Shown one piece after another: positions 5,650-16,747 of a stretch of DNA of 64,000 bases. The position numbers and the translations under genes are program-made. The notes beneath the pieces are model-generated. The model searched no databases and was not told where the DNA came from. It saw only the letters and a program-made list of their open reading frames with translations. Within the stretch, counting starts at the first letter, position 1. Every line of letters begins with the position of its first letter. The stretch is from assembly GCA_014695295.1 (NCBI GenBank), contig JACJNY010000042.1:1-64000 (forward strand), given 5' to 3'. The stretch comes from Microcoleus sp. FACHB-61 (GTDB lineage: Bacteria; Cyanobacteriota; Cyanobacteriia; Cyanobacteriales; Microcoleaceae).

Positions 5650-6973
5650 GTACAGCTCGGCGTAAGTAGACAGACTATATTTGTGGTAGAATAACATAGT
5701 TAGTTTAGACCAGTTTCGGTAGGTGATAAAGGAGTCATATATGGCCTTATTAATGCCTAAAATATTAAAATTAAGCGATGGCGAGCGTCATCAACTTAAC
5801 CAGTTGAGCAAGAGACACAACACGCCGCAACAGATCGTGCTACGAGCCAAAATCATTCTGATGGCATCTGATGGTCAAAACCATCGTGAAATAGCCCGAA
5901 GCCTAGAGATTAACCGGCAGATGGCTCGTTTATGGCGAAACCGATGGTTGGAGAGCGAGGGAAAAGACTTATCGATTTTGCAAAGATTACAAGATCGAGA
6001 GCGTGTTGGCGCACCAGTAAAATTTAGCATGGAACAAGTAACCGAGTTATTTGCACTCGCCTGTTCCTCACCGTCAGATTATGGACGACCAATAAGTCAC
6101 TGGACAGCTAGAGATCTGGCGGAGGAAATCATAAAACAAGGCATTATTGAAAGTATATCAGTCCGCCATGTTGGCAGATTATTAGAAGAAGCAGAAATTA
6201 AACCACACGCCTCGCGCTACTGGTTAACCCCCCCCTGTGGATGAAGAATTTGATGCAAAAGTTAAAGATATTACAGGCTTATATCTGACTGCGATTGAAC
6301 GCAGTCAAAATGGAGAACACACTATATCAGTTGATGAAATGACAGGGATTCAAGCCCGATGAGCGTCTCGAAAAAGACTTACCAATGCGACCCGGGAAAG
6401 TTGCAAGAAGAGAGTTTGAATATATTCGTCATGGTACGCAGACCTTGATCGCTAATTTCAATATTGCGAATGGTAAGATAATCGAGCCAACTTGCGGAGA
6501 TTCGAGAACAGAATCAGATTTTTTACTGAATATTCGTCACATCATTGAAACTGACCCTGATGCCAAAAAATGGCATCTAATTATGGATTGTCTGAATACT
6601 CACCAATCTGAATCACTGGTGCGTTTGGTCGCCGAAAAAGAAGGCTTAGATATCGACCTCGGTATTAAGGGAAAAAGCGGCATACTTCAATCTATGAAAT
6701 CTCGCGCAGTTTTTTTAAGTGACCCAACACATCAAATTGTTTTCCATTACACACCAAAACATTCTTCGTGGCTTAATCAAATAGAGATTTGGTTCAGCAT
6801 TTTGGTGCGGAAATTACTTAAAAGAGCAAGTTTCACCAGTGAGTACGATCTGAAAAATCGCATCCTCAATTTTATTAACTACTTTAATCAAACAATGGCC
6901 AAACCTTTTAAGTGGACATATAAGGGTAAAGTCTTGGCTGGTTAATAGTCTGTGTATTTACGCCGAGCTGTAC
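5650..6973. mobile_element. IS630-family insertion sequence, complete ends, dead transposase
   Basis: Terminal inverted repeats are seen directly: GTACAGCTCGGCGTAAGTAG at 5650-5669 is answered at the right end by the complement reading TACGCCGAGCTGTAC, ending at 6973. ACAGACTAT continues the match inside. Both ends are flanked by TA (5648-5649 and 6974-6975), the target duplicated by IS630 elements, within a CTAG context. The element is about 1.32 kb and carries one transposase gene, which is frameshifted twice. Confidence 0.9.
5723..6945 (+). pseudogene. IS630-type transposase with two frameshifts
   Basis: The N-terminal frame (5723-6244) encodes the HTH region (HREIARSLEINRQMARLWRNRW) and a winged-helix-like part up to ASRYWLTPP. 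After a run of eight C (6228-6235) the protein continues one base out of frame, with VDEEFDAKVKDITG and [10 protein letters not shown] (first catalytic Asp). Near 6356-6361 a second shift leads to [29 protein letters not shown] (second Asp) and [18 protein letters not shown] (catalytic Glu). All DDE residues survive, so decay is recent. The C-run could be a slippage site, but the second shift argues for a pseudogene. Confidence 0.88.
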
Positions 6974-7698: not shown

Positions 7699-8202
7699 AT
7701 GAACACAATCAAACCCGAACCCCAAAGATCGCGCTTCATGGCTCTGCTGCTGACAACGCTGCTGACCTTTCCCTTTGTGAGTGCTTGCGGTTCTGACGAT
7801 CGAACTGTCGCTCCCCCGCCTCCTGTTGACAATTCTCGCGCTGGAGGAGTGCAAACTAATCGTGGCTCCACTCCTTCCCCACAAGCGAAAAAAGGACTGA
7901 GCAATGCTCAAAAAGTAGGGATTACTTTAGCAGGAGCAGCCGCCCTTTACTACATCTACAATCAGCACAAAAATAAACAAGAAAAGGGGCCGCAGGGAAA
8001 ACATTACCTTTCCAAAAACGGTCGGGTTTACTACCGCGATGCCCAGAATCGCGCGGTCTGGGTAACGCCCCCGCCTGAAGGAATTAAAGTTCCGGAGTCC
8101 GAGGCAACGCGTTACCGCGAATTCCAGGGGTACAACAACCAAAATACCGGTCGAGACCTCACTACCTTGCCGGAAGCTACAAGTCCTGTTCCCGCACAGT
8201 AG
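7699..8202 (+). CDS. Putative lipoprotein, conserved cyanobacterial hypothetical
   Basis: A 167-residue protein with an N-terminal basic region, a hydrophobic core and a lipobox FVSAC near residue 30, indicating a lipid-anchored protein. A Pro-rich linker (APPPPVDN) follows, then a second hydrophobic segment (VGITLAGAAALYYIY), and a C-terminal part beginning HYLSKNGRVYYRD that may be a small beta domain. No named family is recognised. It is followed after about 108 bp by the repeat protein gene in the same direction, so the two may be co-transcribed. Confidence 0.7.
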   Translation: MNTIKPEPQRSRFMALLLTTLLTFPFVSACGSDDRTVAPPPPVDNSRAGGVQTNRGSTPSPQAKKGLSNAQKVGITLAGAAALYYIYNQHKNKQEKGPQGKHYLSKNGRVYYRDAQNRAVWVTPPPEGIKVPESEATRYREFQGYNNQNTGRDLTTLPEATSPVPAQ

Positions 8203-8310
8203 TCTAAGCATTTGAGATTTTAGATTGCAGGTTCCGTGACTTTCAATTAAATCTGGGATTCCCAATCTAAAACAGTCGTTTTTCAACACATAAAAAAGAG
8301 GAACTTTATC

Positions 8311-8751
8311 ATGGTAGACGGATTTTTGCGCAAGTTAAAAGATGCGATCGTCGGACCAGACAGCGAGCAAGCCGATCCTGACGGCTATTACGAAGATGCC
8401 TCAAATGCCGGACAGTTCGGCAACGTGACTCCAGCCAGCGAAGACCCCTACGGCGACCCGGCTGAGTACGGACAGTTCGGCAACGTGACTCCAGCCAGCG
8501 AAGACCCCTACGGCGACCCGGCTGAGTACGGAGAGTTCGGCAACCTGACCCCGGCAAGCGAAGACCCTTACGGCGATCCCGCAGACGACGCCGGTACCGA
8601 CTACGCACAGTTCGGCAACGTGACTCCGGCCAGCGAAGACCCCTACGGCGACCCGGCAGACTACGTAGCGGATGCTGGAATGTTCGGCAATGTGATGCCG
8701 GCCAGCGAAGATCCCTACGGCGACCCGGCGGATGAAGAAGGGTTTAGTTAA
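8311..8751 (+). CDS. Acidic protein of five tandem 'FGNVTPASEDPYGDPA' repeats
   Basis: A 146-residue protein. The first 16 residues (MVDGFLRKLKDAIVGP) form a likely amphipathic helix. From about residue 35 it consists of five copies of a unit with core FGNVTPASEDPYGDPA, separated by short acidic linkers, and ends DEEGFS. It is strongly acidic and rich in Asp, Glu, Pro, Gly and Tyr, so probably disordered. AGAGGAAC lies about 9 bases upstream of the ATG, and a terminator follows. No function is known to me. The repeated PxSEDPYGD module suggests multivalent binding of one partner, with the N-terminal helix as an anchor (inference). Confidence 0.8.
   Translation: MVDGFLRKLKDAIVGPDSEQADPDGYYEDASNAGQFGNVTPASEDPYGDPAEYGQFGNVTPASEDPYGDPAEYGEFGNLTPASEDPYGDPADDAGTDYAQFGNVTPASEDPYGDPADYVADAGMFGNVMPASEDPYGDPADEEGFS
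8411..8726 (+). repeat. Tandem coding repeat, 60-bp period
   Basis: The first two units (8411-8470 and 8471-8530) are identical over about 62 bases at a 60-bp period. The third is slightly diverged, and the fourth and fifth have short inserted linkers (GTDYA, DYVADAG). Near identity at DNA level indicates recent unit duplication or gene conversion. Confidence 0.9.
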
Positions 8752-8786
8752 CTCAGTTGGCTATAAAATTTACCTGGTAAGCAACA

Positions 8787-8811
8787 GCACCCCTGCGGGG
8801 GTGTTTTTTTT
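8787..8811 (+). terminator. Rho-independent terminator after the repeat protein
   Basis: GCACCCC / GGGGTG stem with a short TGC-type loop, followed by a run of eight T, about 35 bp after the stop codon of the repeat protein gene. Confidence 0.88.
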
Positions 8812-8839
8812 GCCAGTTCTTTTTGCTAGTTCTCAAAAA

Positions 8840-8924
8840 CGGAGAGGGTGGGATTTGAACCCACGGAACCTTTCAGTTCACCTGATTTCAAGTCAGGCGC
8901 ATTCGACCACTCTGCCACCTCTCC
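8840..8924 (-). tRNA. tRNA-Ser(UGA)
   Basis: On the minus strand the 85-nt sequence starts GGAGAGGTGGCAGAGTGG and ends CCCACCCTCTCCG. It folds as a class II cloverleaf: acceptor stem GGAGAGG/CCTCTCC, anticodon stem CTGA/TCAG around loop CTTGAAA with anticodon TGA (plus-strand 8888-8890), a long variable arm, and the T arm with GGTTCAAATCC. The CCA end is not encoded. The long variable arm and the UGA anticodon identify serine. Confidence 0.95.
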
Positions 8925-8961
8925 GGGCGCATACATTAATTTATCATACCAGCAATTGTCT

Positions 8962-15895: not shown

Positions 15896-16747
15896 ATGTC
15901 AGAAGAACCGAAAAATCCTACCGCTGGCGAATCGGAAACTCCCAGTGCTTCGAGCGAGCACGCTCCGAGTACCGACACAGCCGAGACAACCGACTTTCCC
16001 AGCACTGACAAGCCTCAGCCGACTGCTAAACAGTCAGAACAACCGAAAAATCCTACCGCTGGCGAATCTGAAACTCCCAGTGCTTCGAGCGAGCACGCTC
16101 CGAGTACCGACACAGCCGAGACAACCGACTTTCCCAGCACTGACAAGCCTCAGCCGACTGCTAAAAAACCCGCAGCCAAGAAAGAACCGAAAAATCCTAG
16201 CGCTGGGGAATCGGAAACTCCCAGTGCTTCGATCGAGGACGCTCCGAGTTCCGACACAGCCGAGACAACCGACCTTCCCAGCACTGACAAGCCTCAGCCG
16301 GCTGCTAAAAAGCCCGCAGCCAAGGCGGACGGCGACAAGCCCCCAGCTAAAGCTAAAAAGGAAAAAGCACCTGCTGTTGAAGACAAGCCCTTTGCGGATT
16401 TTATTCAACAAGACTATTTGCCCGCCTTGCAAGCTGCTTTAGCTAAGCAGGGCGTTAAGGATTTAGAGGTGAGTTTGATCAAGCAAAAATTCCCCGTTTT
16501 TGGCATGAGTTCCGCTGGCGATTGCTGGCAGGTAATTGGTAAATTCCAAGAAGGTGAGCGCCAATTTAACCTGTATTTTCCTCAAGAAAATATTCAAAGT
16601 CAAAGAGCCTTTTCCTGCGCGGAGAATAAGACCAAAACCAGCACTTTAGAGCCTTTTTTGATAGACGAGCGTAAGGTTACTCTAGACCTCATGGTGTTTG
16701 GCGTAGTCCAGCGGCTTAACGCTCAAAAATGGCTAAATCTTAATTAG
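15896..16747 (+). CDS. DUF2996 protein with a long N-terminal tandem-repeat region
   Basis: A 283-residue protein. Residues 5 to about 145 are three copies of a Ser/Thr/Pro/Glu-rich unit (PKNPTAGESETPSAS... ending TDKPQPTAK), followed by an Ala/Lys-rich linker. From about residue 162 (DKPFADFIQQDYLPALQAAL) to the end comes the DUF2996 domain, recognisable by FPVFG, CWQVIGKFQEGERQFNLYF, AFSCAEN and LEPFLIDERKVTLDLMVFG. DUF2996 is restricted to photosynthetic organisms as far as I know and its function is unknown to me. The disordered repeat arm is unusual in length. Confidence 0.85.
   Translation: MSEEPKNPTAGESETPSASSEHAPSTDTAETTDFPSTDKPQPTAKQSEQPKNPTAGESETPSASSEHAPSTDTAETTDFPSTDKPQPTAKKPAAKKEPKNPSAGESETPSASIEDAPSSDTAETTDLPSTDKPQPAAKKPAAKADGDKPPAKAKKEKAPAVEDKPFADFIQQDYLPALQAALAKQGVKDLEVSLIKQKFPVFGMSSAGDCWQVIGKFQEGERQFNLYFPQENIQSQRAFSCAENKTKTSTLEPFLIDERKVTLDLMVFGVVQRLNAQKWLNLN
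15908..16310 (+). repeat. Three near-identical coding repeats of about 123 bp
   Basis: Units begin at 15908, 16043 and 16187. Units 1 and 2 are almost identical over their whole length; unit 3 has a few substitutions (TCGATCGAGGAC for TCGAGCGAGCAC). They are separated by variable spacers encoding QSEQ and KPAAKKE. The near identity indicates recent expansion. Confidence 0.9.

Follow-up and report, generated by a model that had tools for sequence, protein, structure and literature searches.

The small acidic repeat protein described here and the lipoprotein encoded immediately upstream from it are very probably functionally coupled. The two genes (Table 1) are found in a stretch of 64,000 nt of the Microcoleus sp. 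FACHB-61 genome, referred to below as the window. A preliminary description of this DNA had reported the repeat protein and overlooked the partner lipoprotein. A motif-and-reader module at a membrane is the best explanation of the pair, with a probability of about one half.

Table 1. Features of the lipoprotein-repeat gene region in the window
Feature	Position	Strand	Remarks
Partner gene, 167-aa basic lipoprotein	7699..8202	+	intact and adjoining in 79/80 loci; alignment A2
Lipobox cysteine C30 of partner	7786..7788	+	invariant in alignment A2
Second Gly/Ala-rich hydrophobic helix of partner, residues 69-91	7903..7971	+	AF2 helix, low confidence; hydropathy peak about 1.1
Basic C-terminal domain of partner, residues 94-155	7978..8163	+	near-invariant YLSKNGRVYYRD...WVTPP core
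108-nt intergenic gap, lipoprotein to repeat gene	8203..8310	+	
Repeat protein gene, 146 aa	8311..8751	+	ORF with ATG start; related stretches elsewhere, n=179
N-terminal helix of repeat protein, VDGFLRKLKDAIVG	8314..8355	+	hydrophobic moment; kept across family
Unit 1, FGNVTPASEDPYGDPA	8416..8463	+	
Unit 2	8476..8523	+	DNA identical to unit 1
Unit 3, FGNLTPASEDPYGDPA	8536..8583	+	
Unit 4, FGNVTPASEDPYGDPA	8611..8658	+	
Unit 5, FGNVMPASEDPYGDPA	8683..8730	+	
Terminator-like hairpin and T run, 3' of repeat gene	8786..8805	+	

The repeat protein

The ORF is real and encodes a small acidic protein (computed pI 4.05, charge about -31), as the preliminary description had it. Five FGN[VL][TM]PASEDPYGDPA units are placed after MVDGFLRKLKDAIVG, behind the N-terminal helix. 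The reported near-identity of the units at the DNA level holds. Units 1 and 2, contained in an exact 64-nt repeat (8409-8472 / 8469-8532), share all 48 nt, possibly as a result of homogenisation; the remaining unit pairs feature 2-10 differences per 48 nt, but only 0-2 at the residue level. Tandem Repeats Finder (TRF) assigns to the gene a period of 60, with 93% matches. The helix had been called amphipathic, and probably is, as judged from its hydrophobic moment. Amphipathicity is weak in the window copy (moment 0.55, equalled by 6% of shuffles) and clearer in five tested relatives (0.2-4% of shuffles). The protein lacks a signal peptide, and is therefore expected to be cytoplasmic.

Looking for the motif in other cyanobacteria had been proposed as a check, and the motif might have turned out to be conserved in no relative. 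Relatives are encoded in 179 stretches found by scanning one-per-species genomes, by which measure the ORF is not a chance one. The best 80 of the 179 stretches were retained for analysis. Hosts among these include Microcoleus, Nostoc, Scytonema, Tolypothrix, Calothrix, Brasilonema, Fischerella and Trichocoleus, as well as a few unicellular cyanobacterial lineages; in a sample of 386 genomes covering the phylum every match falls within the order of the window. Members typically start with MV(D/G/N)xFxxKxxD and carry 1-10 units. The longest tail found, made of ten units separated by nearly identical spacers, is that of Tolypothrix campylonemoides (L041 6001-6675; L172).

The repeated motif of the preliminary description is only in part a family trait, as the core PAS(E/Q)DPYGDPAD is kept throughout and FGNVT varies. 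Among 371 units from 81 loci the core is near-invariant and codons are variable. The within-gene, unit-to-unit dN/dS is 0.032, a value which, as all the conservation figures, is biased toward conservation because units were gathered by a pattern fixing some positions; synonymous variation between units is free of this bias. Since the core is near-invariant while codons vary (dN/dS about 0.03), the motif is held by selection. The five genomes nearest to the window all have five units, and there is therefore no sign of recent change in number. The claim that the units are actively expanding is not supported by this constancy, nor by the purifying selection on the motif, even if unit number varies within the family.

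The upstream lipoprotein

An intact lipoprotein gene precedes the repeat gene on the same strand in 79 of the 80 loci with upstream sequence, and a remnant of it is found in the remaining one. The gap separating the two genes measures 15-224 nt in the 81 loci, throughout which the lipoprotein is the sole gene conserved next to the repeat gene. Further conserved neighbours were sought, but malate dehydrogenase, ATPase, tRNA-Ser and the other flanking genes are all lineage-specific. No plus-strand terminator was found in the interval 8203-8310 of the window, and a good one is located downstream from the repeat gene; an operon is therefore likely. The tRNA-Ser(TGA) gene at 8839-8925, on the minus strand, converges on the repeat gene, and also adjoins a broken repeat gene in another locus (L021).

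Members of the lipoprotein family are roughly 150-175 aa long. In addition to the lipobox cysteine and the second hydrophobic helix, they feature a proline-rich linker and a basic C-terminal domain, the core of which is near-invariant (YLSKNGRVYYRDxxxRxHWVTPP). In the window protein an N-terminal hydropathy peak of 1.92 (residues 13-29) leads to the lipobox, and C30 is invariant in 21 sequences, a pattern suggesting that the protein would be lipidated at this residue. The second hydrophobic helix, which is weak and flanked by positive charges on both sides, may possibly span the membrane. AF2 modelled the lipoprotein poorly (pLDDT 52). The two proteins have opposite charges, that of the lipoprotein being about +7.

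Presence and absence of the two genes were monitored in two sets of genomes. In the order sample (196 genomes) both genes are found in 45 genomes, the repeat gene only in 4, the lipoprotein only in 1, neither in 146; in one family (218 genomes) the corresponding figures are 134, 13, 1 and 70. Fisher values are not literal probabilities, given the overlap of the two samples and the relatedness of the genomes. In the single genome with the lipoprotein only, the start of the repeat gene is present and is followed by a masked stretch; counting this one, the repeat gene accompanies the lipoprotein in each sampled genome.

Motif decay and retention in trans

A profile search found the lipoprotein nowhere in the genomes that have the repeat gene only. 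The N-terminal helix is retained in the 13 such genomes of the family sample, and most of the loci are in the position at which relatives hold an intact pair, next to malate dehydrogenase or to a regulator/ATPase pair. The tails are Arg/Asp/Glu-rich or carry broken motifs: no intact motif is left in 12 of the 13, and one in the thirteenth, against 2-10 in genes with a lipoprotein in the genome. Decay was observed in four genera (g21, g55, g57 and g212), three of which (g21, g55, g57) include also members with both genes. As the genomes are related, lipoprotein losses correspond to few independent events (about four genera). In one genome of the genus of the window only the last unit of the repeat gene remains, and no credible lipoprotein was found.

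Different is the case of three genomes of genus g203 (G550, G552, G555), in which a lipoprotein remnant of 20-29 residues adjoins an intact repeat gene. Each of them hosts a solitary intact lipoprotein elsewhere in the genome, and the motifs are intact. Similarly, a lipoprotein remnant adjoins an intact repeat gene at a Brasilonema locus (L072). These patterns indicate that what the motif tracks is whether the genome has the lipoprotein, rather than simple linkage. Of four g203 genomes, three have no more than a remnant of the lipoprotein next to the repeat gene, and solitary lipoproteins lacking an adjoining repeat gene were noted in this genus at L203, L213, L214 and L215.

Some orphan genes (L156-L158, L178-L185, L195) encode proteins with the same N-terminal helix followed by a repeated Arg/Asp/Glu-rich tail (RRSRRDRYDDEDE). 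One such protein is found alongside a protein with an intact motif tail in genome G699, and proteins with Arg/Asp/Glu tails may therefore serve a use of their own. Likewise, the charged tails of the orphans are altered in composition, not deleted, and so the orphans may have another use.

A second protein architecture

The tail is also attached to another domain, about 165 residues long (MNxLxxIFGGG...DYRNFVNRYEQG...); this is the case in family f17, and many Nostoc-like genomes have such a gene as a second locus. These genes also adjoin a lipoprotein paralogue. The alternative domain is predicted to be helical (pLDDT about 60-86), and its tail to be disordered (pLDDT under 50). Residues 123-167 of the domain gave a weak match to DUF533 (PF04391; E 0.0025), rejected because the score of 17.9 is below the cut-off of 29.6; the repeat protein of the window does not share this feature. 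A Foldseek comparison to the PDB revealed no fold match (best E 0.98). Wherever the domain was found in 196 genomes the tail goes with it, and the role of the domain itself therefore offers no clue. A modular docking motif would be expected to look like this, with one tail and one class of partner common to two carriers.

Comparison to databases and other repeats in the window

The repeat protein has no credible relative among Pfam, NCBIfam and PDB sequences. The single Pfam match of the window protein, to Auts2, was below threshold, and the dehydrin profile was not matched. A match to a hypothetical protein of an Acinetobacter phage (32% identity) was discarded as chance similarity of repetitive sequences. 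No relative of the repeat protein was found on plasmids and viral contigs, and the repeat gene is therefore not a mobile-element gene. The lipoprotein has no match above the curated cut-offs in Pfam and NCBIfam; hits to NCBIfam invert_tail and SslE are below cut-off and confined to the signal region. By eye, there is a resemblance between the lipoprotein core GRVYYRD...W..P and a WW domain (strands 2-3), and DPYGDP recurs in the tail. However, the first Trp is missing in the lipoprotein, PPxY is missing in the tail, and no Pfam WW match was obtained in 21 members even at E 10, so that this assignment was abandoned. Literature searches retrieved no paper with the motif, and none relevant. On the basis of the Pfam, NCBIfam, PDB and literature searches, the pair appears to be undescribed.

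The window hosts another repeat protein, of 283 aa (15896-16747, plus strand), in which three 45-residue units (SEEPKNPTAGESETPSASSEHAPSTDTAETTDFPSTDKPQP...), 91% alike at the DNA level, are followed by a globular C-terminal part. Two successive ORFs at 5723-6945 (plus strand) resemble, by the look of their sequence, the halves of an IS630-type transposase.

Discussion

Computed anatomy, pairing, co-occurrence, motif decay, retention in trans, the shared tail and selection all enter into the motif-and-reader module. In this scheme the lipoprotein would be held at the membrane by a lipid anchor at C30, and possibly a second time by its second hydrophobic helix, and its basic C-terminal domain is proposed to recognise the acidic PAS(E/Q)DPYGDPAD motif. 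The repeat protein would be the carrier, its N-terminal helix, replaced elsewhere by the different helical domain, acting as payload or second membrane contact. With its predicted disorder and 1-10 copies of the motif, the tail of one carrier could gather several lipoproteins into a cluster. Chances that the lipoprotein binds the tail motif directly are about even. The topology of the lipoprotein, the clustering and the cellular process served are what we infer.

Topology is the weakest point of the model. The soluble part of a lipoprotein is normally periplasmic. The repeat protein being presumably cytoplasmic, direct reading needs the C-terminal domain of the lipoprotein to lie in the cytoplasm, and this domain may not reach it, because the second helix is weak and positive on both flanks. 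If the domain stays out of the cytoplasm, the data are better read as an indirect link via a third protein. The two proteins would then belong to one shared pathway, the tail motif being read by the third protein and the lipoprotein working across the membrane or as an adaptor of that protein. Co-occurrence and decay would be accounted for equally well, the topology problem disappears, and the gene of the reader is free to lie elsewhere. Still, a third gene conserved beside the pair is absent, and no partner other than the lipoprotein is known to follow the motif, which the lipoprotein does in trans too; overall the indirect link is possible, yet less probable than the motif-and-reader module. 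Slightly more doubtful is the boldest form of direct reading, in which different cytoplasmic domains carry PAS(E/Q)DPYGDPAD as a tag dedicated to membrane docking and the C-terminal domain of the lipoprotein reader does reach the cytoplasm.

Explanations that leave the lipoprotein aside fare worse. A hydrophilic, repeated tail, predicted to be disordered, would suit a dehydrin-like stress-protective protein with a helix contacting membranes on drying, and many hosts among the genera named above inhabit soil or surfaces. Yet such a role is improbable, as it leaves unexplained the strict pairing to the lipoprotein and the decay of the motif after its loss, no match to dehydrins or other Pfam families was obtained, and the near-invariance of a 12-residue core exceeds the need of bulk hydrophilicity. 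A multi-core precursor of the RiPP type, with the helix as leader and the repeats as cores, is also called to mind by the leader-like N-terminus and the short peptide repeated in tandem after it. Genes for modification, protease or export are not conserved alongside, the lipoprotein alone being so, and the 165-residue domain preceding the same tail in other genomes is not leader-like; such a precursor is very improbable. Least credible of all is the neutral expansion of tandem repeats in a dispensable protein, to which the identical DNA of units 1 and 2 and the different number of units in different genera might point. It is already contradicted by the selection data, that is by the low unit dN/dS with freely varying codons (some ascertainment bias being allowed for), and also by the constant number in the nearest relatives, by the wide conservation, and by a motif that decays only without the partner.

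The preliminary description had likened the protein to a multivalent, acidic, membrane-tethered scaffold or linker. The disordered tail, the helix and a co-evolving, membrane-associated partner gene are in keeping with this view; the part tying the tail to this particular helix is not, as the same tail follows another domain. Disordered multivalent linkers are of a known kind, represented by EPYC1 and CsoS2 (PMC11570498, PMC10614612). Like them, the repeat protein is, by prediction, a disordered chain of repeated short motifs, on which several partner copies could be bound. It differs in its motif and in its much shorter tail, and the sequences revealed no relation. The partner is Rubisco in those systems, whereas the partner proposed here, linked to the motif by genetic coupling, is a membrane lipoprotein. 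Plant dehydrins similarly alternate conserved segments of 8-15 residues with disordered stretches (PMC11763121), and the repeat protein shares with them small size, hydrophilicity and the alternation of short conserved segments with variable disordered ones. However, there is no sequence match to dehydrins, which are not characterised by strict coupling to a lipoprotein gene.

Two uncharacterised families of proteins, common in several families of cyanobacteria, are thus a genetically coupled pair. The motif decays upon loss of the lipoprotein and is retained if the lipoprotein has been relocated; this amounts to a natural deletion experiment, which points to a specific interaction between motif and lipoprotein. 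Should the tag be read as supposed in the boldest form of direct reading, an unusual lipoprotein topology and an undescribed cyanobacterial recruitment system would be implied. If binding is true, the tail would serve membrane docking as a short and portable tag of adjustable valency, and the pair would raise a new question of membrane organisation in these cells.
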